Below are positions 3,373-13,960 of a DNA stretch of 27,773 nucleotides, piece by piece. Made by a program: the position numbers and the translations under genes. Under the pieces are notes generated by a model that saw only the letters and a list, made by a program, of their open reading frames with translations, did no database searches and had not been told where the DNA came from. How positions within the stretch are numbered: position 1 is the first letter of the stretch; the number at the start of each line of letters is the position of its first letter. Source of the stretch: a virus; IMG/VR virus record IMGVR_UViG_3300046516_000901, positions 1 through 27,773 of that record; one strand, given 5' to 3'.

Positions 3373-3468
3373 ATGTCCAAGTCGGACTGGTGGTTTTTCT
3401 GGGTCATCGCCGGGGTGTTCCTCTGGCTGATGGCGATCGACAGCATCGGTCACCTGGCGTGGGGATGA
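3373..3468 (+). CDS. Tiny single-pass membrane protein, 31 aa
   Basis: The ATG at 3373 follows the DUF3310 stop directly, and the TGA at 3466 overlaps the methylase start (ATGA). The peptide has a short polar N-terminus followed by a hydrophobic, Trp-rich stretch (DWWFFWVIAGVFLWLMAI) long enough to span a membrane once. A GGCGAGG sequence lies about 5 bases upstream. The tight junctions on both sides support it as a real gene. Function is unknown; tiny membrane proteins in early phage operons can affect host membrane enzymes or exclusion, but nothing specific is visible. Confidence 0.5.
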   Translation: MSKSDWWFFWVIAGVFLWLMAIDSIGHLAWG

Positions 3469-4280
3469 CCGTGCGGCGCCCGGCCCTCAGGTACTTCGGC
3501 GGCAAGTGGCGGATCGCGCCGTGGATCATCTCGCACTTTCCTCCGCACCGGATCTACTGCGAGCCGTTCGGCGGCGCCGCGAGCGTCCTTCTGCGAAAGG
3601 AAAGGTCTTATGCTGAAGTTTATAATGACCGCGATGGTGAGGTGGTTAATTTATTCCGTGTACTTCGCGACCGGAGCGCTGATCTTGGCGCGCTTCTGGA
3701 GAACACTCCGACTGCTCGCGACGAGTACGACCTCGCCCACGAACCGTCGGGCGACCCTGTCGAGCAGGCGAGGCGGACGATCATCAGGTCGTTCCTCGGA
3801 TTCGGGGCTGCGAGCTTGACCAGGGCATCGAAGAGCGGCTTCAGGGCGAGGGTTTCGAGTAATCGAAACCCGGCGGCGGACTTTCACTCCTATATCGGGT
3901 TGCTCGATCAATTCCGAGAGCGCCTTCGCGGAGTGATTATCGAGAACCGCGACGCCATCGAGGTGATGGAGCAGCAGGACGGTCCCGACACGCTCCACTT
4001 CGTAGACCCGCCCTACGTCCACGGCGTCCGGACGGCCGGAAAGCACGGCTACCGATGGGAGATGACCGACGCCGACCACGAGCGGCTCTGCGGGTTTCTG
4101 CAAACGCTCGGCGGCATGGTCGTGCTCTGCGGGTACGACAACCCGATCTACGGTGGCCTGGGCTGGGGAACGTCCGTCAAAAAAACCTGCGCCGACGGGG
4201 GCCGCGAGCGCACCGAGGTGCTCTGGATGAACCCGGCTTGCCTCGCCGCCGCGGAAGCTGTAGCCTCCACCCTAATATGA
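3465..4280 (+). CDS. Dam-like D12 class N6-adenine DNA methyltransferase
   Basis: This 271-residue protein carries the D12 (Dam) methylase signatures. RYFGGKWRIAPWI at the N-terminus is the SAM-binding FxGxK motif. EPFGGAASVLL follows, then YNDRDGEVVNLFRVLRD, and the catalytic DPPY sits in HFVDPPYVHG. It should methylate adenine N6 in the phage DNA, either to evade host restriction or to mark DNA. The recognition site cannot be read from the sequence. The ATG at 3465 is chosen because it overlaps the preceding stop (ATGA) and sits immediately before the FGGK motif; a longer frame from 3390 would add unrelated residues. It overlaps the ParB-like gene by 4 bases. Confidence 0.9.
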   Translation: MTVRRPALRYFGGKWRIAPWIISHFPPHRIYCEPFGGAASVLLRKERSYAEVYNDRDGEVVNLFRVLRDRSADLGALLENTPTARDEYDLAHEPSGDPVEQARRTIIRSFLGFGAASLTRASKSGFRARVSSNRNPAADFHSYIGLLDQFRERLRGVIIENRDAIEVMEQQDGPDTLHFVDPPYVHGVRTAGKHGYRWEMTDADHERLCGFLQTLGGMVVLCGYDNPIYGGLGWGTSVKKTCADGGRERTEVLWMNPACLAAAEAVASTLI

Positions 4281-4798
4281 GCACATGGAAACCGGTCATC
4301 CAATGGCGAACCCCCGAGTCCCTCGTCCCCTACGCGCGGAACGCCGCCGTCCACTCGCCGGAACAGATCGACGAGCTGGCCGGGCTGATCGCCGCGAACG
4401 GGTTCACCCAGCCGGTAGTCGTCGACCGGGAGGGCGTGATCGTGGTGGGCCACGGGAGGCGCGAGGCAGCGCTCAAGCTGAACCTCTCCGAGATCCCGGT
4501 GGTGGTGGCCGACCACCTCGACGAGCACCAGCTCGCGGCCTACCGCCTGGCCGACAACAAGATATCAGAGCGCAGGACCTGGGACACGGAGATGCTGAAG
4601 TTCGAGCTCGGGTCCCTAAAACTGCGGGACTTCGACATGCGCCTCACCGCGGTGCCGCTTCCGGAGCTGAAGTCGATGCTCCCAGGGGATCCTGGTACCG
4701 CCGCGAACGAGGCCCGCGGCGCGAAGGAACTCGGCGAGGAAGAGTTCCAGAAGTTCGCGCACACCTGCCCTAAATGCGGCTTCGGATTCGATGGCTAG
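4277..4798 (+). CDS. ParB/sulfiredoxin-like nuclease-domain protein
   Basis: The 173-residue product begins with a ParB-like N-terminal domain: LVPYARNAAVHSPEQIDELA, NGFTQPVVVD, then the GHGRREAALKL box and ADNKISERRTWD. In phages this domain usually stands alone or is fused to a DNA methylase, and can have nuclease or NTP-dependent DNA-binding activity. Here it is a separate gene sandwiched between two DNA methylases. The C-terminus ends in HTCPKCGFGFDG, a single CxxC that could bind metal only with help from another chain. The start at 4277 overlaps the adenine methylase stop (ATGA). Confidence 0.85.
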   Translation: MSTWKPVIQWRTPESLVPYARNAAVHSPEQIDELAGLIAANGFTQPVVVDREGVIVVGHGRREAALKLNLSEIPVVVADHLDEHQLAAYRLADNKISERRTWDTEMLKFELGSLKLRDFDMRLTAVPLPELKSMLPGDPGTAANEARGAKELGEEEFQKFAHTCPKCGFGFDG

Positions 4799-5642
4799 CC
4801 AGATCCTTAAAACCGGCCCGTGGCGGCTCTCCGACCTGTCCCCGGCGGCGCATGGCGCGCCGACCGTTTTCTCGTGCTTCTCCTGCGGCGGGGGGTCGAC
4901 GATGGGCTACAAGCTCGCCGGATTCGACGTCCTCGGCGGCGTGGAGATTGATCCGGAGATGACCGCGGTCTACCGGAAAAACCACCGTCCGAGGTTCTCG
5001 TACCTGGAGGGCATACAGGAATTCAAGGCGCGCCTGGACCTGCCGAGAGAACTTTTCGCTCTCGACGTGCTGGACGGGTCTCCGCCGTGCTCGAGCTTTT
5101 CCATGTCAGGAAACCGGGAGAAAGACTGGGGAAAGAAGAAGGTCTTCCGAGAGGGCCAGTCCGACCAGGTCCTGGACGACCTGTTCTTCCACTTCATAGA
5201 CACGGTCAGGATTCTCAGGCCCAAGGCCGTGGTCGCCGAGAACGTGAAGGGGCTCATCGTCGGGAACGCCCGGGGGTATGTGAAGCAGATCTTCGACGCG
5301 TTCAGGTCGGCCGGATACGACTGCCAGCTGTTCCTGCTGAACGCGTCCAGGATGGGCGTGCCGCAGAGGCGGGAGCGGACGTTTTTCTTCGCGCGGCGGT
5401 CCGACTTGGGGTTGCCCCCGATCCGCATGTCGTTCGGGGAGCGCGAGATATCCTGCCGCCAGGCCTTCGCCGGGATCAATCCGGTGGGGACCGCGGCCAC
5501 GGAGCTCCAGAGGCACTGGTGGTCGAGGATCAAGCCGGGGCAGTCGTTTTCCAAGGGGCACCCCAAGGGGCACTGGTTCAACTGCTTCCGCCTCCACCCC
5601 GACCTCCCGTTTTCTTCATGGCGAGATGTCATACCGCGTTAA
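4791..5642 (+). CDS. DNA cytosine-C5 methyltransferase, C-terminally truncated
   Basis: Visible motifs are I (TVFSCFSCGGGSTMGYKLAGF, split near residues 25-45), IV with the catalytic Cys100 (GSPPCSSFS), VI (ENV at 150-152) and VIII (QRRERTFFF, about 192-200). The chain then stops at residue 283, right after KGHWFNCFRLHPDLPF, where phage relatives continue into the rest of the target-recognition region and motifs IX and X (typically ending in QIGNAVPP). No continuation is seen in the other frames of the next 90 bases. Motif X helps close the SAM pocket, so the enzyme is probably inactive unless complemented. The start overlaps the ParB-like gene by 8 bases. Confidence 0.85.
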   Translation: MASQILKTGPWRLSDLSPAAHGAPTVFSCFSCGGGSTMGYKLAGFDVLGGVEIDPEMTAVYRKNHRPRFSYLEGIQEFKARLDLPRELFALDVLDGSPPCSSFSMSGNREKDWGKKKVFREGQSDQVLDDLFFHFIDTVRILRPKAVVAENVKGLIVGNARGYVKQIFDAFRSAGYDCQLFLLNASRMGVPQRRERTFFFARRSDLGLPPIRMSFGEREISCRQAFAGINPVGTAATELQRHWWSRIKPGQSFSKGHPKGHWFNCFRLHPDLPFSSWRDVIPR

Positions 5643-5731: not shown

Positions 5732-6010
5732 TCACGCGGCGAGTCCCGGCCCGCAGAACGTGTAGGACTGCCCGACGACGGCGTCTCCTTGGTGCCATTG
5801 GACGATGCCGCCTTCTTTCCAGTGCACGTCGCAGAAAACCGTGTCGATCTCCCAGTCGTCCACCCCAGTCCGGCAGTTGTCGATTTTCTCGCACGTCATG
5901 GTGACGCATTTGTCGGCGCCGGGAGGCATTCCGCAGGCCGATCCGAGAACCGCCAAAACCGCCAAAATCAGTATAATCAACGTCCTGTTCATCATTATAC
6001 TATTTTACTA
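5655..6010. repeat. Imperfect AT-rich inverted repeat flanking lipoprotein gene
   Basis: TAGTAAATTATAGT at 5655-5668 and the reverse complement of 5999-6010 (TAGTAAAATAGT) match over 12 positions with a 2-base gap. The arms bracket the lipoprotein gene 5732-5995. The match is short and AT-rich, so chance is possible. Confidence 0.25.
5732..5995 (-). CDS. Small cysteine-rich lipoprotein, putative moron
   Basis: The 87-residue product starts MMNR followed by a strongly hydrophobic stretch (TLIILILAVLAVLGSAC). This reads as a lipoprotein signal peptide with the modified Cys at about residue 21, although the position -3 residue is Gly rather than the usual Leu. The mature part is short and has five more Cys residues, including TVFCDVHWKEGG, so disulphides in the periplasm are likely. 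It stands alone at the end of the late region, has its own candidate promoter and lacks a clear Shine-Dalgarno site. Small phage lipoproteins of this kind (for example T5 Llp) block superinfection; that role here is inference. Confidence 0.7.
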   Translation of the reverse strand: MMNRTLIILILAVLAVLGSACGMPPGADKCVTMTCEKIDNCRTGVDDWEIDTVFCDVHWKEGGIVQWHQGDAVVGQSYTFCGPGLAA

Positions 6011-6035
6011 CAGTATTAGAGGAAAGTCCAGTCAA
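6007..6035 (-). promoter_or_regulatory. Candidate sigma70-type promoter for the lipoprotein gene
   Basis: On the minus strand, TTGACT (6030-6035) and TGTAGT (6007-6012) are separated by 17 bases and match the -35 and -10 consensus at 5 of 6 and 4 of 6 positions. The predicted transcription start would lie only a few bases before the ATG at 5995, giving a very short leader. This fits the absence of a ribosome site. The -35 box overlaps the end of the upstream methyltransferase gene. Confidence 0.4.
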
Positions 6036-6514
6036 GGTTTGGCCTCCAGGTATAAGTCCCCGAAATTATAGCGGTCGCACTCGGCATGCTGGGCGACCGC
6101 CGCCGCGCGCGTGAACCCGCCCATTTGGGCCAGCCGCAGGATCTCGTCCCGGTCGTACATGTAGAGGTGTCCCCAGAGCCGCTGGCCCTCGTTCAGCATC
6201 GCGCAGGGGGTATCCGGGAGCCACGCGCCGCCGTACTCCCGGATCTCGCCCTTGAGGTAGCGGTCGATCAGGACGCGGACGTCGGGGCAGGAGAACCTGA
6301 GCACACCCTCCGGCCTGAGGATGCGCCGGCACTCCCGCATGAGGGCCACCGCGTCGCCCCATTCCAGGTGCTCGATGAAGTGCTCCGAGAAAACCAGGTC
6401 GACCGATGCCGTCTGGAGTGTCCTCAGATGGTCCGGGAGCCTGTGCCCGAATATCGCGTCCAGGTTCTGGAATCCCTCCTTGAGCACGTTCCCGCTCCCC
6501 AGGTTGAGCCTCAT
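6032..6514 (-). CDS. SAM-dependent methyltransferase (COG4627-like)
   Basis: This compact 160-residue class I methyltransferase starts MRLNLGSGNV, the SAM-binding motif I. It continues with ASVDLVFSEHFIEHLEW, RECRRILRPEGVLRFSCPD and a C-terminal half containing GHLYMYDRDEILRLAQMGGF. It resembles predicted methyltransferases found in polysaccharide loci, which often cap or modify sugars. I chose the ATG at 6514 because motif I starts there and it overlaps the stop of the glycosyltransferase gene (ATGA); the frame extends upstream but only as a shadow. It is the last gene of the four-gene sugar cassette, so it may methylate the sugar added by the preceding enzyme. The substrate is not readable from sequence. 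Confidence 0.8.
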   Translation of the reverse strand: MRLNLGSGNVLKEGFQNLDAIFGHRLPDHLRTLQTASVDLVFSEHFIEHLEWGDAVALMRECRRILRPEGVLRFSCPDVRVLIDRYLKGEIREYGGAWLPDTPCAMLNEGQRLWGHLYMYDRDEILRLAQMGGFTRAAAVAQHAECDRYNFGDLYLEAKP

Positions 6515-7254
6515 AGTTTTCCCTTCGACCGGAGCCACTCCTCGAAGGAGCCGTGGAACACGCCTCGGTGGGCATGGTCCCACTTCCATTCCTTATAGAG
6601 CGGGTTGACCCGGTCGTGCATCCGAAGATCTTCTCGGTAGTCCTCGAGGAACACCCACCGGCCGTGTTTTTTAACTTCGTCCCACATGCAGATTTCGAGC
6701 CCCCCGTACAGGAGCGACGGCTCCCTGAGCCCGCCGACCGCGCGGAGCCAGCCGCGGCGGAAACCGCAGATGGAGTTCATCGCGGCGACGCGGAGCTCGC
6801 GCACCCGCACCCCGTCCAGGATCTCCGACCCAAGGCCCTTGGTTTCGGCGTTGAGCTCGCGCTCGGAATGGGTGTGCCAGAGCGACAGCCAAACGACCCT
6901 GGGGTCCGCGACGAATGCCCGGCACATGGCCATGTTCCACCCCGGCGTCAGCGGCCAGGAGTCGGGGTCGTAGCCGACCACCATCGCGTTGTCAGGGATA
7001 CCGACCTGCTCCAGCGCCCAGTTGAAACCGTGGTGGAGACCGAGGTTTTTACCGGGGTCCAGGAGCGTCGCCCCGTGGTCCCGGGCGATGGCCTCGAGAT
7101 TCGCGCGCGTTTTCGGATAGTCGATCGGCCAGTGCTGGTCGACCATGAGGAGACGGTCCTCGACCGCGGGGTCTATGGTCTTCCGCCGCTGCTCGAGCGA
7201 GTCGGCGATGATGTCGGTGTCGTTGTGGCATAAAGAAATTGTCCAGGTCTTCAC
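6511..7254 (-). CDS. Glycosyltransferase, GT-A fold (GT2-like)
   Basis: The 247-residue product begins with a short beta strand (MKTWTISLCHND from a GTG). It shows DPGKNLGLHHGFNWAL near residues 75-90, the usual NxGxxxGxN element of GT-A transferases, and VGYDPDSWP, an Asp-Pro-Asp that fits the metal-binding DxD. Later parts include CGFRRGWLRAVGGLREP and GGLEICMWDE, equivalent to the acceptor-side region. It should transfer a nucleotide-activated sugar in the cytoplasm. The GTG at 7254 overlaps the acyltransferase stop (GTGA); the longer upstream frame is a shadow. Acceptor and sugar are unknown; context suggests an amino sugar made by the two enzymes upstream. Confidence 0.78.
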   Translation of the reverse strand: MKTWTISLCHNDTDIIADSLEQRRKTIDPAVEDRLLMVDQHWPIDYPKTRANLEAIARDHGATLLDPGKNLGLHHGFNWALEQVGIPDNAMVVGYDPDSWPLTPGWNMAMCRAFVADPRVVWLSLWHTHSERELNAETKGLGSEILDGVRVRELRVAAMNSICGFRRGWLRAVGGLREPSLLYGGLEICMWDEVKKHGRWVFLEDYREDLRMHDRVNPLYKEWKWDHAHRGVFHGSFEEWLRSKGKL

Positions 7255-7802
7255 TTGATCCTCTTGGCAGGCACTCCGCCCCAGGTCTCCCCGGCCGGAA
7301 CGTCTCTGATCACCGCGGCGCCCATCCCGACGATCGCTCCGGCGCCGATCCGAACGCCCTCGCGGATGGCCGAACCGGTCCCGATATAGGCCCCACGTCC
7401 GATGCGGCAGCACCCCGAGATGTTCGCCCCGGGAGAGACGGTCACGAAGTCCTCGATCACCGTGTCGTGTCCGACCGTGACATTCAGGTTTAAGATGACA
7501 CCCTTCCCGATGGTCACGTCGGGCGAAACCCGGACGCCCGGGCACCGGACCCCGTTTCGCATTTCTACCCCCAGCGAATGCACGCCAGCCGCGATGGCTT
7601 CCCACCAGAGCCTCTCCCGGACGCCTGGGTGACCCACGGCCGCGACGAAGTGGGTGAACCCCTCCAGGGACGACACGACGGGTTTTCCGCGGAGCATCTG
7701 GCCGGGTTCGGCGTTGTCGCTGTAGAAGGCGTCGGCCGAACCCTGCATCCATTCGAAAACTTCGCGTGCGAAACCGCCGGCGCCGAGCAGCACCACCCTC
7801 AT
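7251..7802 (-). CDS. PglD/NeuD-like sugar O/N-acyltransferase (hexapeptide repeat)
   Basis: The protein has 183 residues. The N-terminal Rossmann-like part (MRVVLLGAGGFAREVFEWM) is the PglD_N domain. From about residue 85 it turns into left-handed beta-helix hexapeptide repeats (VTIGKGVILNLNV, IGRGAYIGTGSAIREGV, IGAGAIVGMGAAV) and ends GETWGGVPAKRIK. His112 in VGHDTVIEDF fits the catalytic base of PglD and NeuD. Such enzymes acetylate an amino sugar on a nucleotide carrier, which suits its place directly after an aminotransferase (ATGA overlap at 7799-7802). The start at 7802 is fixed by that overlap and by the family N-terminus. Confidence 0.88.
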   Translation of the reverse strand: MRVVLLGAGGFAREVFEWMQGSADAFYSDNAEPGQMLRGKPVVSSLEGFTHFVAAVGHPGVRERLWWEAIAAGVHSLGVEMRNGVRCPGVRVSPDVTIGKGVILNLNVTVGHDTVIEDFVTVSPGANISGCCRIGRGAYIGTGSAIREGVRIGAGAIVGMGAAVIRDVPAGETWGGVPAKRIK

Positions 7803-8809
7803 GCCATCACCTCGTTGACTCTCCGCACGACGATCTCGAGCTCCTCGTCGGTCACGTCGGACGGCAGGGCGTACCGGGATAGGATATCCGCGTCGGGAGT
7901 GAAACAACCGTCGCAAAGTTCCTCTGGAAACGGGGGATAATATTGCCTGACATCGATCCCCATCCGGACGAGTTTCAAAGCCTTCGCGGCATTCAACCCC
8001 GATAGCACGCAGAGGCTCGGGGCCGACACGTTCTGGAGGGGCGCGAAAAGTTGGGTTTCGTCGATGTACGTTTCGAGCGTCAGCCGCTTGCGTTCGATCC
8101 GATCCAGGACCGCCTCGTATCGGTCAAGGTGCGCCAGGATCACGGCGCAGAGTAACTCCGACGGCTTGTGGTTCCTGCCGTCGAGCGACCGCACGATCCG
8201 GTCCGGATCGTTGCAGAAGTTGGAGAACCACCGCGCGCGCTCCCATTCGGCCTGGCTAGACACGGCGAGAACCCCGCCCTCGCCGCAGGAGAAATTCTTG
8301 GTCGCGTGGAGGGAGTAGCACGAGGGGTTTTTTGTCTCCGGGATCACCCCCCACTGTCCGGCGAGATCGTAGATGAGCCCGATCCCGGTTTCCTCGGCGA
8401 GCTTGTCCCACGCCGCGAAATCCACGGGGTACCCGAACGGGCTCACCACGACGGCGCCTTGGACGGAGTGCGGAATATTCGGATTCAGAGTCCACGTGTC
8501 GATACCGGTTGGCCAGAAAACCGGAACGCACCCGGCCGCCCTGACCGCCTGGACCGTCCCGATGTGCGTGTAGTCGGGCACCAGGATTTTCTCTCCGAGC
8601 TTGAACCTGAGGCGGCAGGCGATCTCGATCGCGGCGGTGCCGGTGGAGACCGGTAGGCAGGGCCTGCGCATCATGTCAGAAAGCCCCCGCACGGAGCGCT
8701 CGAACAGCGCCCCGAAATTAGAGAACGAGCCGGATCCGTAGGCCGTTTTCATGTGCCGTCCGATGTCGTCCCAAGCCGGGAACATCGGTCGGTTCAGGGG
8801 GATAGCCAT
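7799..8809 (-). CDS. DegT/DnrJ/EryC1-family PLP sugar aminotransferase
   Basis: The 336-residue protein matches nucleotide-sugar aminotransferases. It has a GSGSFSNFGALFE N-terminal motif, STGTAAIEIACRL (cofactor phosphate site), VPDYTHIGTVQAV, Asp148 in LIYDLAGQWG (pairs with the pyridine nitrogen) and the Schiff-base Lys171 in SLHATKNFSCGEGG. It is a little shorter than the usual 360-390 residues. The family converts a keto-sugar nucleotide to an amino sugar using Glu or Gln. No 4,6-dehydratase or epimerase is present in the window, so the keto substrate would have to come from the host or from genes outside. It directly follows the previous gene's stop (TAA then ATG). Confidence 0.9.
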   Translation of the reverse strand: MAIPLNRPMFPAWDDIGRHMKTAYGSGSFSNFGALFERSVRGLSDMMRRPCLPVSTGTAAIEIACRLRFKLGEKILVPDYTHIGTVQAVRAAGCVPVFWPTGIDTWTLNPNIPHSVQGAVVVSPFGYPVDFAAWDKLAEETGIGLIYDLAGQWGVIPETKNPSCYSLHATKNFSCGEGGVLAVSSQAEWERARWFSNFCNDPDRIVRSLDGRNHKPSELLCAVILAHLDRYEAVLDRIERKRLTLETYIDETQLFAPLQNVSAPSLCVLSGLNAAKALKLVRMGIDVRQYYPPFPEELCDGCFTPDADILSRYALPSDVTDEELEIVVRRVNEVMA

Positions 8810-9037
8810 TTAGATACCCTTGCCTTTGATCTCGGCGTCGACCGCCGAGTCCTCCGCGAGCGTGATGGTGTATTTGGCCTGGCCGATCTTGTTGAGACAC
8901 TTGACGACGAGGGCTGCGAACGCGGAATTACTCGCATCGACAACCTGCTTGGCGGCGTTGGCAGCCCCGACGGCGCCGAATATTTCCTGAAGAATTAGTA
9001 GGGTTAACTGGGCGAGCGCCGCAATGAGCGCGATCAC
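8810..9037 (-). CDS. Small membrane-anchored protein, 75 aa
   Basis: I do not recognise this protein. From the GTG at 9037 it begins with a hydrophobic helix (IALIAALAQLTLLILQEIFG) that should insert in the membrane. An Ala/Val-rich amphipathic region follows, then a charged C-terminus ending KGKGI. The GTG overlaps the stop of the lipoprotein gene (GTGA). The location among lysis-type genes makes a holin or antiholin accessory possible, but only one membrane segment is evident and this is inference. Confidence 0.6.
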   Translation of the reverse strand: MIALIAALAQLTLLILQEIFGAVGAANAAKQVVDASNSAFAALVVKCLNKIGQAKYTITLAEDSAVDAEIKGKGI

Positions 9038-9633
9038 GGGATGGCGCCTCCGTAGACGGTCGACCTGCCCTTCGTCGTCATGGCCATGTGGTAGATACCC
9101 GAGGTCCACTCCCATGCGAAGTTCTTGTCGTCGTGGACGCCAGATAGAGACACGTAACTCGCGTCAAGAACGCGGAGCCGGATCTCGCCGAGCGCGGCCG
9201 ACTGGTGTTCGTTCCCGCCCGTGTCGACCCATGTCCACTCTTCGACAACCTGCCAGTATCCGGCCTGGTCCTTCGCGAACGCTGGAGCGCCGACGAGCTG
9301 CGACCACTTGACGTCGATCTGAGTCTGGTTGTCCGGCACCGACTGACCGAAGATCACCTGGCCCTTGGGGTCGAAGACCTTGAAAGTGACGCACGGCTTC
9401 GTCCTGCACTGCACTGGCGGGGCCACGAGGGAGACGCCGAACTGAGTCGTGTCCTGCCCCTCATGGACCCTGCAGTAGGTAAAGCCTGAAACCGGCTGGT
9501 TCCCGCACCCGGAGATGATCACCGTGGTGTCGTTCGCCTCCATCGCGTAGACGGGCGACGTATCCACGATGGATATCCCCGAGCAGTTCGCGATCGAGAG
9601 TGCGAGCGCCAGCGCGGCCAGTGGTCTCCTCAT
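9034..9633 (-). CDS. Lipoprotein of unknown function, 199 aa
   Basis: The start MRRPLAALALALSIANCSG is a typical lipoprotein signal with lipobox I-A-N-C and Ser at +2, which predicts outer-membrane sorting in a Gram-negative host. The mature part is beta-rich and has four more Cys residues, including SGCGNQPVSGFTYCRVHEGQ and VQCRTKPCVTF, followed by a long stretch with several Trp residues (YWQVVEEWTWVD and FAWEWTSG). The start at 9633 is chosen because the signal peptide begins there, 2 bases after the preceding stop. It is too large for a typical o-spanin. It could act in superinfection exclusion, in lysis or on the host surface. Confidence 0.7.
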   Translation of the reverse strand: MRRPLAALALALSIANCSGISIVDTSPVYAMEANDTTVIISGCGNQPVSGFTYCRVHEGQDTTQFGVSLVAPPVQCRTKPCVTFKVFDPKGQVIFGQSVPDNQTQIDVKWSQLVGAPAFAKDQAGYWQVVEEWTWVDTGGNEHQSAALGEIRLRVLDASYVSLSGVHDDKNFAWEWTSGIYHMAMTTKGRSTVYGGAIP

Positions 9634-9635
9634 GC

Positions 9636-10001
9636 TTAGGCCGTCGGAGCGGGGGCGACAACCGGCTGTTGCTTGACCGCGGCGACGAGTGCCTCGCAGT
9701 CGACGACGACGTCGAGCGCGAGCTTCGCCGATGCGGCGACGATCGCCTGGGCCTTGGCATCTCCGAGGCCGGCCGACAGGCCGACGACGTACGCCAGGAG
9801 GTCGGCGTCGGCAGACGGATCTGCCAAGAGAGCCTCGAGCTCTGCCTTCGCGCTGGAAACCGTGCCGGCCAGGGAAACGGCGTCCATTCCCGAAGTCACC
9901 GCGTCCTGCAGCAGCTTGGTCCACGCCTTGGCCACAACATCGACAACCAGGGCCTCGGCGTCGAACGCCTCTTTAATCACAGCCTTTAAGAATTGGTTCA
10001 T
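9636..10001 (-). CDS. Ala-rich helical protein, 121 aa
   Basis: I do not recognise this protein. It is almost entirely predicted helix, rich in Ala, Val, Leu and Asp (for example AKAELEALLADPSADADLLAY), with a Pro-rich C-terminus. There is no clear signal peptide; hydrophobic stretches such as AEALVVDVVAKAW look amphipathic rather than membrane-spanning. The ATG at 10001 overlaps the previous stop (ATGA) and is preceded by AAGAAGGAGAA, a good ribosome site. It sits in the lysis-type gene cluster, but no role can be assigned. Confidence 0.6.
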   Translation of the reverse strand: MNQFLKAVIKEAFDAEALVVDVVAKAWTKLLQDAVTSGMDAVSLAGTVSSAKAELEALLADPSADADLLAYVVGLSAGLGDAKAQAIVAASAKLALDVVVDCEALVAAVKQQPVVAPAPTA

Positions 10002-10159
10002 TTTGAATTCTCCTTCTTCCGCAGGATAGCGCGAAACGCGTTGCAGACAAGCCCAATTGTGCTGTGGTGCCGGGTGAGTCCGAGGAGGAACTCCCAGACC
10101 AGGCCGATCAGGAGCTGGTGGATATTGATCTTGGATAACAGCTCATGCGAGATCTGCAT
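9998..10159 (-). CDS. Small protein with one hydrophobic segment, 53 aa
   Basis: This short frame runs from the ATG at 10159 to a TGA that overlaps the next ATG (ATGA). It overlaps the end of the DUF5675 gene by 17 bases. The peptide has a polar N-terminus, a hydrophobic core (HQLLIGLVWEFLLGLTR) and a basic C-terminus (RAILRKKENSK). It may associate with the membrane. It fills what would otherwise be the only gap in a gapless operon, which supports translation. The function is unknown; a small lysis accessory is possible. Confidence 0.55.
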   Translation of the reverse strand: MQISHELLSKINIHQLLIGLVWEFLLGLTRHHSTIGLVCNAFRAILRKKENSK

Positions 10160-10526
10160 CCGACACCTCGAGATCGAATTCGTTTTTACCCTTCATCAGG
10201 TTCATGAATGCGTCGAAGGCGAGCTTGCTCCCCAGGACCGCGATGCCGTCCCGCCTGAGCCCCAGGAGCACGCACCCGGTCGAATCCTTCTGGAGGTTTC
10301 CGATGTGGATCTCGATGTAGTCGTGCCCCTCCACGCCCGTTATACAGAACAGCTCGTATCCGAAATGCGGGGAAACCCGCCGCACGCACTTGTAGGTTCC
10401 GGCCGCGAGCTTGGGGAGACAGTTATAGGAATGCTCTAGCGTTGCCGCGAGCACGGTGCCGGATTCGTCCGAGAGCTGTCCGAAAATTCCGTCCGGAGTG
10501 AAATCGTAGCGGATGAGCCGGATCAT
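10143..10526 (-). CDS. DUF5675 family protein, possible cell-wall-active lysis gene
   Basis: The 127-residue protein fits the phage DUF5675 family: TLEHSYNCLPKLAAGTYKC, HFGYELFCITGVEGHDYIEIHIGN and DSTGCVLLG. These proteins are usually found beside phage lysis genes. The IHIGN element followed about 6 residues later by STGC recalls the His...Ser-x-Gly-Cys active site of L,D-transpeptidase (YkuD) folds. A link to peptidoglycan is therefore reasonable but inferred. No other endolysin candidate is visible. The start at 10526 overlaps the holin-like gene stop (ATGA). Confidence 0.75.
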   Translation of the reverse strand: MIRLIRYDFTPDGIFGQLSDESGTVLAATLEHSYNCLPKLAAGTYKCVRRVSPHFGYELFCITGVEGHDYIEIHIGNLQKDSTGCVLLGLRRDGIAVLGSKLAFDAFMNLMKGKNEFDLEVSDADLA

Positions 10527-10771
10527 TTCTTCAGCACCGCCGCGAGCGCGGCAATTCCAACGGTGAACGCTGACCCGGCCAGCGTGAATAGCCAGAATCG
10601 GTCCCGCTCGAGGATGGAGACCCTATTGTTGGTCCCGTGGTGGTCCTTCGAGAGGTCTTTTAAATCGACGTGCACGTCGTTGATCTTGGTGAAAACCCCG
10701 TCCATTTTCCCGTGCATGCTGACCATGCCTTCCTCGATCCGGATCACCCGAGTTTCGACCGTCTCGTGCAT
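10523..10771 (-). CDS. XhlA-like holin/hemolysin accessory, 82 aa
   Basis: The protein has a charged, coiled-coil N-terminal half (heptad-like pattern through VHVDLKDLSKDHHGTNNRVSILE) followed by one C-terminal membrane segment (FWLFTLAGSAFTVGIAALAAVL) and a Lys-Lys end. This is the architecture of XhlA and of many short phage holin-like proteins. It probably sits in the inner membrane with the coiled coil in the cytoplasm and helps trigger lysis. The ATG at 10771 has a GGGAGGG ribosome site 8 bases upstream. It is the first gene of the gapless block that runs down to 6032. Confidence 0.7.
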   Translation of the reverse strand: MHETVETRVIRIEEGMVSMHGKMDGVFTKINDVHVDLKDLSKDHHGTNNRVSILERDRFWLFTLAGSAFTVGIAALAAVLKK

Positions 10772-10807: not shown

Positions 10808-11383
10808 CTATTTGATCCACCCGATCTGGTGGTTTTTGAAAATAGGCTCGTAACCCAGGCATTTCATGAACGCCTCGACCATCAGATGCTTGCCCGCGTC
10901 ATTTCCGTGCCTGTCGTCCACCGCGATGAGGCACCCCTTCGGGAGTTTCGCCCACACGGCGCACAGTTCCCCCAGATGGTGCATCGAGGATTGGATGTTG
11001 AGCTGGGGCGTCCAGTCGAAAGAATCGAGATAAAGAACGCAGCAGCGGGAGAGCACATCGTCGGAGAGCGAGTTCAGAACCTTCGGCGAGTCGCCGCAAT
11101 GGAACGTGATCCGCGATGTCTGCGTCTGAGCCGTTTCGATCGCTTCGGGACGGATGTCGATGGAATGGATTTCTAGCCCAGGGCGATGCCCCGCGAGCCA
11201 ATCCCAAACGATTGTTGACTGACCCTGGCCTTCCCAGTTTCCCTCGTCCCATGCCGTGCCGGTCTCGATGACCACGCCGCCTTGAAACTTCCCGGCGTGC
11301 TCGCACATCACCCGGAAATTACGCGCGCGCCTGGCGAGTTGTTTGGCCCATGGTTGCCGGTCGAAAAGTTCTCCTATATTCAT
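10808..11383 (-). CDS. Class I SAM-dependent methyltransferase, 191 aa
   Basis: The protein shows VVIETGTAW (motif I), IHSIDIRPEAIETA (motif II with the ribose-binding Asp), FHCGDSPKVLNSL (motif III) and VLYLDSFDW (motif IV), with AVDDRHGN near the end. This is the methyltransf_24 type often seen in glycan and secondary-metabolite loci. The ATG at 11383 overlaps the GT9-like stop (ATGA), so the two are probably co-translated; the longer upstream frame is a shadow. It may modify the same glycan as the GT9-like enzyme. Base composition is lower in GC than the tail genes. The substrate is unknown. Confidence 0.78.
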   Translation of the reverse strand: MNIGELFDRQPWAKQLARRARNFRVMCEHAGKFQGGVVIETGTAWDEGNWEGQGQSTIVWDWLAGHRPGLEIHSIDIRPEAIETAQTQTSRITFHCGDSPKVLNSLSDDVLSRCCVLYLDSFDWTPQLNIQSSMHHLGELCAVWAKLPKGCLIAVDDRHGNDAGKHLMVEAFMKCLGYEPIFKNHQIGWIK

Positions 11384-12390
11384 AATCTCTCCCTGCACCA
11401 CGGACCGACGATCTCGGGATCCGGGAGCCACGACCGGAGCGTGGCCTCGTCGACCTGGTCGATGCGCGTTTCCCCCGACCGGTTCGGGCAGTTGTCCATG
11501 ATGTTCCACATCCCTCCGAGCGAGAGATTCTGCATCCTCCAGGACCACGTGCCGTTCCGCCAGTGGGAGATGTAATCCGGGTGTTTGGCCGACGCGAAGA
11601 ACGCGATCCACGCGTCGCCGGAAACAGCCATGTGAAGCACCGAGGAATCGTTAGTGACGACGAGTTTGAGCTTCTGCGAGAGCCAGACCGTTTCCATGAC
11701 CGTCGTTTTGTTTCTCAAGTCAACGCACCCGGCGGTGTCGGTGTCAACCGTGCCCTGGGTTTCATCGGTTTCCTTTCCGACGAGAACCGGAACGAGCCCC
11801 TGCTTTTTGATCGAATCGAGAGCCGAGTCCCACCATTCTTTCGGGAACGTTTTAGACGGCCAGTGTTTCCCGGCGTGGACGAGGACGTGCCGCTGATCGT
11901 TGGCCAAGGAAATAAGCTCTGGATTTTCTGGACACTCTGGTTTCAGGACCACTTCCTTGTCCGCAATGGGGAGCTGGCATCGGAACGCGCAGAGGGACGG
12001 GAAATCCACGCAGTTGGTGATCGAGTGGGACATGAACTGGGGAACGAGCGAATTTCCATCGTGGTTCACGATCGTTTCAAAGCAGAGGAAATCATCCCAA
12101 ACCGGACGCTCTTTTTTTAGGTCGTAAACGTCGAAGAAATTGAGGTGCCTAAAAAGCTCTGGCATCTCGCTTGCGAGAGTGATCCGTTCTCCGCTCTTGA
12201 AGTTTTTCAGTGCGAACCTTAGCGTCGGTTCAGAGCAGATCTGATCGCCGATACCGCCCCAGGTGCGGATCAGGATATTTTTCTCCACCTTGTTTTTCAA
12301 CGCGATCGTGGTCCGACCGGCCGGGAGATGCCGGAACGGAACGATAATGGAATCTTCTTGGGCCGGGAGACCTGTGGGGGTGAGGTTCAT
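11380..12390 (-). CDS. Glycosyltransferase family 9-like (heptosyltransferase fold)
   Basis: This 336-residue protein has two Rossmann-like halves. The first has NILIRTWGGIGDQICSEPTLRF near residue 40. The second contains VLVHAGKHWPSKTFPKEWW, a close match to the HPGSSWPSKRWP motif of ADP-heptose:LPS heptosyltransferases, and VVTNDSSVLHMAVSGD, the nucleotide-sugar site. GT9 enzymes normally act on LPS core in Gram-negative bacteria. Here it lies between a predicted fibre gene and a methyltransferase. It might change host LPS or sugar-coat a virion protein. The first 35 residues are unlike the family and the start at 12390 has only a weak ribosome site, so a later start is possible. Confidence 0.8.
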   Translation of the reverse strand: MNLTPTGLPAQEDSIIVPFRHLPAGRTTIALKNKVEKNILIRTWGGIGDQICSEPTLRFALKNFKSGERITLASEMPELFRHLNFFDVYDLKKERPVWDDFLCFETIVNHDGNSLVPQFMSHSITNCVDFPSLCAFRCQLPIADKEVVLKPECPENPELISLANDQRHVLVHAGKHWPSKTFPKEWWDSALDSIKKQGLVPVLVGKETDETQGTVDTDTAGCVDLRNKTTVMETVWLSQKLKLVVTNDSSVLHMAVSGDAWIAFFASAKHPDYISHWRNGTWSWRMQNLSLGGMWNIMDNCPNRSGETRIDQVDEATLRSWLPDPEIVGPWCRERL

Positions 12391-12421: not shown

Positions 12422-13960
12422 TCAAGCTAAGTATTCGACGATAACCTGGTCGACAAGACCAGAGCCAATCGGAGTGGTTCCGAACGTCGCGTAAAAATTT
12501 TTCATCGAGATCGAGTAGGTCGTACCAGGAGTAACTGGAATGGAGTTTGTTTCTATTTTATCCTTCACATTCGCGATGTTCATGGGTCCGACGACGAGAG
12601 TTGGACTGGATCTCGGAGTGACATCTCCAACTCCGAGCTGTCCATTACTATTAAAACCCCAAGAATAGAGCTGACCTGTAGCAGTTACGGCAAGGATCGA
12701 AGTTAACTGAGCGCTACTATCTACACCACTGAAAACAGATACGAAATTTAACCCGCCGACAACAAGCGTTGGGCTCGATCGGGCTGTGGTATCCCCAACA
12801 CCAAGCTCGCCATCCGTATTGTCTCCCCATGCGTACAGAACCCCGGCAGAAGTAAGCCCAAAAGCGCACCCATTACTCGCACTGGTTCGAGCCATGAAAA
12901 TCTGAGAGAAAACAAGCCCACCGACCACGGCCACGGGACTGGACCGATTGGTGGTAGAACCGTCGCCTAATTGACCCTTTGCGTTAGCTCCCCAAGAATA
13001 TGCGGCACCAGAAGTGGTGAGACCCAACGTGCTAGAAGAAGCACTATTCGGTATGTTCTGAATAGCTTGGAACGTCAATCCGCCAACTACGAGAGTGGGA
13101 CTTGATCTTGGAGTGCTATCGCCCACTCCTAGCTCACCGTTCGTATTGAACCCCCAGGAATATATTTGTCCAGCGGTTGTAATTCCAAAAGCACTCTGGG
13201 CGGTGGAGGTGTTCGCGCCGCCGCTGTAAAAGTTTTGAAATGCCAGACCTCCAACGACGAGGGTAGGACTGGATCTGACTGTAGTGTCTCCAACCCCTAA
13301 TTGGCCATTTTGATTAATACCCCAGGCATAGAGTTGACCAGCAGTTGTGAGAGTCAAGATCGAACGTCCAAAGGCATGGATACCAAGAACAGTCAAACCG
13401 CCGACGACGAGAGTGGGACTAGATCGTTGATTTACGTCACCGACGCCGAGCTGCCCTTGTTGATTGTTGCCCCAGGCATAGAGTTTTCCGTTGGTGGTGA
13501 TCCCATAAGAGCCGCTGCCGTTGGTGCCTGTATTGTTGCCTCTGCCGAGAGCCATGAAAGTAATGCCCCCGACAACGAGGGTTGGGCTCGACCGCGGCGT
13601 TGTATCATTGGTGCCTCCGCCTCCAAAACCATTGCCACCCCACGAATAAAGAAGGCCCGATTGAGAAAGTCCAAATAATTCATTAGAACCTTCATCTCCG
13701 TAGCTCCAACATTGAATAAATTGCAACCCACCAACGACAAGGGTAGGGCTAGATCGGGGCGTGCTGTCCCCCACTCCGAGCTGTCCACTGTTGTTAAAAC
13801 CCATCATGTATAGTTTTCCATAGGAATCTAGAAAACCGCCAGAACATGGAACTATCGGTTGAGCTCTCTTAATAGCTAAGACTCTTGCCGTGGTGACGCC
13901 GGCCGGGATTGTTACCGATCCATCCGTGGTGAAAGTTTTCCTGACGAGATTCCTGCCCAT
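12422..13960 (-). CDS. RCC1-repeat beta-propeller protein, putative receptor-binding fibre
   Basis: The 512-residue protein has a short N-terminal segment (TFTTDGSVTIPAGVTTARVL) of the kind seen in fibre-like phage proteins. Eight RCC1-type repeats of about 50-57 residues follow, each with LYxWGxNxxGQLGVGD then RSSPTLVVGG, and a distinct C-terminal domain of about 50 residues. Eight blades are within reach of a closed propeller (RCC1 itself has seven). The gene lies directly after the main tail fibre, and its lower GC sets it apart. It is likely to be an adhesin exposed at the tail tip, with blade loops as the variable surface. The receptor is unknown. Confidence 0.82.
   Translation of the reverse strand: MGRNLVRKTFTTDGSVTIPAGVTTARVLAIKRAQPIVPCSGGFLDSYGKLYMMGFNNSGQLGVGDSTPRSSPTLVVGGLQFIQCWSYGDEGSNELFGLSQSGLLYSWGGNGFGGGGTNDTTPRSSPTLVVGGITFMALGRGNNTGTNGSGSYGITTNGKLYAWGNNQQGQLGVGDVNQRSSPTLVVGGLTVLGIHAFGRSILTLTTAGQLYAWGINQNGQLGVGDTTVRSSPTLVVGGLAFQNFYSGGANTSTAQSAFGITTAGQIYSWGFNTNGELGVGDSTPRSSPTLVVGGLTFQAIQNIPNSASSSTLGLTTSGAAYSWGANAKGQLGDGSTTNRSSPVAVVGGLVFSQIFMARTSASNGCAFGLTSAGVLYAWGDNTDGELGVGDTTARSSPTLVVGGLNFVSVFSGVDSSAQLTSILAVTATGQLYSWGFNSNGQLGVGDVTPRSSPTLVVGPMNIANVKDKIETNSIPVTPGTTYSISMKNFYATFGTTPIGSGLVDQVIVEYLA
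12588..13790. repeat. Eight diverged DNA repeats encoding RCC1 blades
   Basis: The most alike part of each unit encodes RSSPTLVVGG. Copies begin near 12590, 12750, 12920, 13082, 13247, 13399, 13568 and 13727, a period of about 150-170 bases. Synonymous codons differ between copies while the peptide is kept, so these are old, selected repeats and not a recent tandem duplication. Confidence 0.8.

Follow-up and report, generated by a model that had tools for sequence, protein, structure and literature searches.

Phage DNA from a metagenome, the 27,773-base IMG/VR record IMGVR_UViG_3300046516_000901 (the window, that is, the whole stretch analysed, identical to the record and classed as linear), contains a cassette of four minus-strand genes, running from 8809 to 6032, that are predicted to encode an aminotransferase (AT), an acyltransferase (AcT), a glycosyltransferase (GT), and a methyltransferase (MT). 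The reading we favour, with some confidence, is that this phage and its relatives synthesise a modified 4-amino-4,6-dideoxyhexose of their own and put it to use, most likely on a virion protein. More tentatively, and with less confidence than in this general statement, we propose that a lineage of tailed phages in which no integrase was detected carries a near-complete, horizontally moving pathway for a deoxythymidine diphosphate (dTDP)-linked 4-amino-6-deoxysugar, which would place a methylated, N-acyl-viosamine-like sugar on the virion proteins of these phages, as a counterpart of the Mimivirus fibril glycan, and would employ a GT family not found in the cellular genomes scanned. The single enzymes are not new; the novelty lies in their combination into an aminosugar set that brings its own GT family and is spread over the late genes in a lineage without cultured members.

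The four-gene cassette

The AT (7799..8809; 336 amino acids) is a sugar aminotransferase of the DegT/DnrJ/EryC1/StrS family, similar to VioA, DesI, and WecE, with Lys171 as the pyridoxal phosphate lysine. It scores 96.1 bits against the family profile PF01041 (curated cut-off, 19.8); Lys171 and Asp148 lie in the expected motifs and are invariant across nine homologues, and the profile matches in PDB include DesI, WbpE, WecE, perosamine synthase, and Mimivirus L136. The AcT (7251..7802; 183 amino acids), assigned to the NeuD/PglD/VioB-type hexapeptide N-acyltransferases with the TIGR03570 profile and PDB matches (the best are 4m9c and VioB, 7txp), combines an N-terminal Rossmann-like part with hexapeptide repeats and the catalytic His112, which is invariant in three homologues; the Hexapep domain scores 51.9 bits (cut-off, 27), and PglD_N, at 21.6 bits, is just under its cut-off of 23.4. 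The third protein (6511..7254; GTG start; 247 amino acids) has no match in Pfam, NCBIfam, or PHROG and does not match the Glycos_transf_2 profile used for CAZy family GT2. Its AlphaFold model (predicted local distance difference test score (pLDDT), 92.6) adopts the GT-A fold, with a foldseek probability of 1.00 to GT-A enzymes; PcManGT, ppGalNAc-T, and SpsA are among the PDB fold matches, and the DxD motif (D96-x-D98) is invariant among 10 homologues, all consistent with a soluble GT-A glycosyltransferase. The ppGalNAc-T match (TMq 0.66) was not taken as a sign of a protein acceptor, given that GT-A domains match broadly. The MT (6032..6514; 160 amino acids) is a class I S-adenosylmethionine-dependent methyltransferase (PF08241, Methyltransf_11, 32 bits; model pLDDT, 86), for which the fold search retrieved generic methyltransferases, with no sugar enzyme on top. 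Hydropathy analysis detected no transmembrane segments in the cassette enzymes.

Each gene overlaps the next by four bases on the minus strand: the AT/AcT junction (7799..7802, ATGA) reads GGCATGAGG, the AcT/GT junction (7251..7254, GTGA) reads CAAGTGAAG, and the GT/MT junction (6511..6514, ATGA) reads ACTATGAGG. Overlaps of this length are common in phages, and the four genes may be translationally coupled. An earlier note on this DNA, made from the letters and their translations, had described these open reading frames, their overlaps, the key residues of the AT and AcT, and the order of the four enzyme classes along a pathway; the profile and fold searches bear out this description.

Gene content of related phages

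Relatives were found via the baseplate J protein, which retrieved six records of closely related phages plus a short fragment, and then with alignments of the GT, AT, and AcT; besides the window, 11 IMG/VR records encode the GT (G002, G003, G004, G006, G008, G009, G010, G011, G012, G013, and G014). The relatives are mostly 48-53 kb in size, and four of them carry direct terminal repeats (81-127 bases in the assembly) and look complete. Because the window breaks off within the major capsid gene and the relatives mostly have these sizes, it apparently represents about half of a genome; in general, genes of metagenomic records can be absent through truncation.

The AT and a hexapeptide AcT are present in 10 of the 11 records and are both missing from G010, so that the two are jointly present or jointly absent in all 11. 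The MT was identified in 8/11 records; G010 and G012 lack it, and G011 is a fragment. Seven records (G002, G004, G008, G010, G011, G012, and G014) also encode RmlB, the dTDP-glucose 4,6-dehydratase, together with RmlC. Three of the RmlB proteins exceed the equivalog cut-off of 365 bits (G002, with 367 bits, G012, and G014), and the RmlC of G004 scores 160 bits against a cut-off of 155.8. In several relatives, these two genes sit between the terminase and portal genes, a region outside the window. RmlB was not found in the remaining four records (G003, G006, G009, and G013). The absence of a dehydratase had been read in the earlier note as evidence that the phage taps a host pathway; this argument is not supported as it stands for a window that breaks off before the region in question, in a group where most relatives encode the enzyme, and tapping of a host 4-keto sugar is possible for some of these phages, as judged from the four relatives without RmlB.

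An RmlD-like reductase is encoded in 9 of the 11 GT-bearing relatives, and 10 of the 11 encode a GT-B-like protein (motif TSFYRG.GPL) with no Pfam match, which is likely to be a second glycosyltransferase of the system (for instance, L020:6289-7416 (-), L017:8433-9557 (-), and L140:7226-8269 (+)). The AcT of G008 has VioB, the dTDP-viosamine acetyltransferase, as its best match (116 bits). In the nine records searched with these profiles, we found no RmlA-type nucleotidyltransferase (NTP_transferase), no integrase (PF00589), no GtrA (PF04138), and no protein of the thymidylate synthase family (PF00303).

Gene order and apparent joint transfer

The complete set of activities characteristic of viosamine-type gene sets, that is, an aminotransferase, an acyltransferase, a transferase, and a methyltransferase encoded together, is found in the window and in G013. 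The latter genome has the AT-AcT-GT-MT genes in the same order and on the same strand as the window, directly after a lytic-enzyme-like gene that the AT gene overlaps. In G008, the AT and AcT genes overlap, as do the GT and MT genes, and ~1.2 kb of other genes separates the two pairs. In G011, the order is RmlB, RmlC, portal, a small gene, AT, AcT, and GT. Most other relatives have a WcaF-like AcT and, in the head region, an MT gene next to that for the RmlD-like protein; the RmlD-like gene follows the MT gene, and the pair does not share the strand of the structural genes around it (L022:5847-7288 (+), L025:420-1759 (+), and L017:1160-2523 (+)). Because the same gene set recurs in related phages, the cassette is not a chance assembly, and the suggestion of the earlier note that these genes form a unit gains support from the relatives; the absence of such a unit from related phages, which that note had named as a refuting result, was not observed.

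The set also occurs in G012 (152 kb) and G014 (104 kb), which are larger phages of a different backbone, without matches to the sheath, J, and terminase profiles. In both, the genes for RmlB, RmlC, and the AT form a group, followed by a WcaF-like AcT gene of opposite orientation and then by the GT gene; in G012, the group is contiguous, and its RmlC and AT genes overlap by four bases. The AT and GT trees are concordant, grouping the window with G008 (with moderate support, 81-83 only) and G002 with G012, and the sheath tree groups the window with G010. The agreement of the two enzyme trees, against that of the sheath, suggests that the AT and GT genes moved jointly.

Single-protein pattern scans of IMG/VR with the AT and the GT yielded no matches, and neither did a tblastn search of 50,697 phage records with the GT. 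The AT matches only 8 of these 50,697 records, all at <30% identity, and RmlB is frequent (234 of the 50,697). A scan of 84,980 GTDB species genomes with the GT alignment found none, within the limits of a pattern-based method that can miss distant relatives, so that absence from cellular genomes is not proven by it; the GT family as recognised here comprises 12 phage records. The best annotated phage match for the AT, in MW202713 (26% identity), is encoded next to the terminase; genes for a protein with a methyltransferase domain and for a tibC-like GT lie in the vicinity. A J-protein scan had a sole match, a 7.6-kb contig of a metagenome-assembled genome labelled Bacteroidales, which is too weak to name a host.

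A putative route to a modified viosamine-like sugar

We read the set as a predicted dTDP-4-amino-6-deoxysugar route of the viosamine (VioA/VioB/VioT/VioM) kind. The starting compound would be dTDP-4-keto-6-deoxyglucose and the product an N-acylated 4-amino-4,6-dideoxyhexose because RmlB adjoins the AT and the AcT of G008 is most similar to VioB. Host dTDP-glucose would be converted to the 4-keto sugar by the phage RmlB in most members or by a host enzyme where the phage has none. As no RmlA was found in the nine records, dTDP-glucose would have to come from the host, and so would the 4-keto sugar in G003, G006, G009, and G013, which lack RmlB. The phage AT would then add an amino group at the keto carbon, probably C4, the NeuD/VioB-type AcT would N-acylate the amino sugar, and the soluble GT-A enzyme would transfer it in the cytoplasm, with O-methylation by the MT before or after the transfer. 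Alternatively, the AT might use the 3,5-epimerised sugar, given that RmlC precedes the AT in G012. Acting late in infection, the enzymes would most likely modify a protein of the tail fibre, tail, or capsid and so give rise to glycosylated particles; the sugar might serve to shield the particles from antibody-like or surface traps, to bind a receptor, or to stabilise the particle. We infer the dTDP carrier, the C4 position, the order of the steps, the acceptor, and the purpose. Most of the genes run in the same direction as the late genes, no integrase was detected, and none of the enzymes has a membrane segment, all of which points to virion proteins as the most likely acceptor. The negative searches for an integrase, GtrA, and thymidylate synthase in the nine records disfavour lysogenic conversion and classic DNA glycosylation, and host surface glycans rank second.

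Several observations weigh against this proposal. The AT falls far below every equivalog cut-off (the best, DesI, at 58 of 650 bits), so that C3 in place of C4, and uridine diphosphate (UDP) in place of dTDP, would also fit its subfamily scores. The AcT matches the TIGR03570 (NeuD/PglB/VioB) profile over the full length but, at 139.1 bits, remains under the cut-off of 160.8, and neither the GT nor the MT has a substrate-informative relative. In seven relatives, the AcT belongs to a different, WcaF-like hexapeptide subfamily, is encoded on the opposite strand, and might O-acetylate. G010 has the GT without the AT and AcT, and accordingly the GT may take other 6-deoxysugars; this genome and G012 also do without the MT. 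Both the chemistry of the pathway and its acceptor are predictions.

The same pathway could instead alter host surface glycans (lipopolysaccharide (LPS), capsule, or flagella), for example, blocking superinfection or keeping particles from sticking to debris. We consider this unlikely but the best of the alternatives: the cassette lies near lysis-type genes, alteration of the host O-antigen is known from phages, and the GT9 protein encoded upstream of the cassette (see below) belongs to the family of LPS-core heptosyltransferases that act at the cytoplasmic face, but genes placed so late could hardly remodel the surface in the time available, and the lack of an integrase and GtrA in the nine records, together with that of transmembrane segments in the enzymes, speaks against a flippase-coupled Gtr-type system. 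On the grounds of these missing genes and segments, lysogenic conversion, including Gtr-type O-antigen conversion, was rejected. The earlier note had allowed for decoration of either the virion or the host surface; the evidence leans to the virion, and a surface change in lysogeny is unlikely.

Still less probable, in our judgement, is that the four proteins are loosely acquired metabolic enzymes that do not form one pathway or whose substrate is some small molecule or metabolite of the host and not a transferred sugar. The separation of the MT from the AT and GT in most relatives, the two AcT subfamilies, and the GT without an AT in G010 would fit such a set; the strict co-occurrence of the AT and AcT, the recurrence of the gene order in G013, G008, and G011, and the passage of the set into phages of other backbones, with RmlB and RmlC attached, would not. 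That the sugar hypermodifies the DNA of the phage and so guards it against restriction is the most improbable of these alternatives and, in its classic form, was rejected: DNA glycosylation is known to be carried out by phage glycosyltransferases, has been suggested as the role of the dTDP-rhamnose genes of phi92-like phages (PMC7552041), and could be thought to fit a window with Dam- and Dcm-type methylases, but no thymidylate synthase or hydroxymethylase homologue was found in the nine records, so that an acceptor base with a hydroxymethyl group is not predicted, the genes lie among structural and lysis genes, away from DNA metabolism, and phi92-like phages, with their analogous pathway, are restricted normally (PMC8594841).

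Comparison with known systems

A close parallel to the virion-directed pathway that we favour is the viosamine island of Pseudomonas syringae, where vioA, vioB, vioT, and vioM build a modified viosamine and attach it to flagellin, as established with mutants and mass spectra (PMC3927599). The four predicted activities are the same, as is the presumed dTDP-6-deoxysugar chemistry, and rhamnose enzymes are present in most of the phage relatives. Unlike the phage set, the island is bacterial and chromosomal, with flagellin as the demonstrated acceptor; VioT consists of 1,173 amino acids, compared with the 247-residue, single-domain phage GT, and no vioS, vioR, or acp was seen in the window.

Among viruses, Mimivirus makes Vio4NAc, partly 2-O-methylated, for its virion fibrils, with R141, L136, L142, and R132 involved; at the time of that report, all of its predicted glycosyltransferases had yet to be characterised (PMC10117803). 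Here, a virus produces an N-acetylated, O-methylated viosamine for its own particle, and L136 is among the PDB matches of the AT. In contrast to the phages, Mimivirus is a eukaryotic giant virus with a UDP carrier, a large gene cluster, and a fusion of L142 to a GT; the enzymes of the two resemble each other only distantly, and a virion acceptor in the phages is putative.

The phi92-like coliphages (Justusliebigvirus) carry RmlB, RmlA, RmlC, and RmlD and thus resemble our phages in encoding RmlB, RmlC, and a reductase (PMC7552041). They differ in the presence of RmlA and in the location of the genes in a DNA and nucleotide metabolism region, for which DNA glycosylation was proposed, and no aminotransferase or acyltransferase is annotated in that stretch. 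In mycobacteriophages, glycans have been reported on the C-termini of capsid and tail-tube proteins (Freeman et al. 2023, cited in PMC12619734). As in our proposal, phage particles carry glycans there; unlike in our proposal, no aminosugar synthesis set is claimed for these phages in the part of PMC12619734 that describes them. We found no paper on an aminosugar pathway serving virion glycosylation in phages.

Genomic surroundings of the cassette

The plus strand of the window carries early-type genes, including those for a RadD-like helicase, a lambda-type exonuclease, and, close together, Dam-type adenine and Dcm-type cytosine DNA methyltransferases (3390-4280 and 4791-5642); the Dcm protein shares 62% identity with its counterparts in G003 and G006. 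The minus strand carries a contractile-tail module (baseplate J, sheath, and a Mu gpP-like hub). In G006, an open reading frame between the tape measure and the next tail gene (29117-29935; L024:9117-9935 (-)) resembles, by eye, a PAPS-reductase-type protein.

A small lipobox protein is encoded directly downstream of the cassette (5732-5995, minus strand). Upstream, on the same strand, a putative lysis region (8810..10771) consists of genes for small membrane, lipobox, and DUF5675 (PF18925) proteins, as recognised from hydropathy and the profile match, and is itself preceded by a methyltransferase-like gene (10808..11383; weak Methyltransf_24 match, phrog_24975 at 84 bits) that shares an ATGA overlap with the gene for a heptosyltransferase-like GT9 protein (11380..12390; PF01075, 34 bits). 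These two genes form a putative second sugar pair of the same late region, and the GT9 protein is probably a second sugar transferase; its homologue in G004 is 49% identical and is encoded directly before the AT. The protein at the tail-fibre position (12422-13960, minus strand) consists of RCC1 beta-propeller repeats (PF00415, seven stretches); such a protein is also present in G004, where the GT9 gene comes next as well. The label of a lysis operon, given to this region in the earlier note, is supported in part, by the small-protein genes next to the cassette and by the overlap with a lytic-enzyme-like gene in G013, but no endolysin was identified in the window.

Biological implications

Few cases of self-made virion glycans in phages are known. 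The conserved set described here extends over the terminase, capsid, tail, and lysis regions and yields a well-delimited series of enzymes, each of which can be assayed singly with available substrates. If the proposed pathway is real, phages would join those viruses that equip their surface with self-made rare sugars of a bacterial type, with the involvement of a new GT family, and the finding would bear on how phages escape from traps or antibodies.

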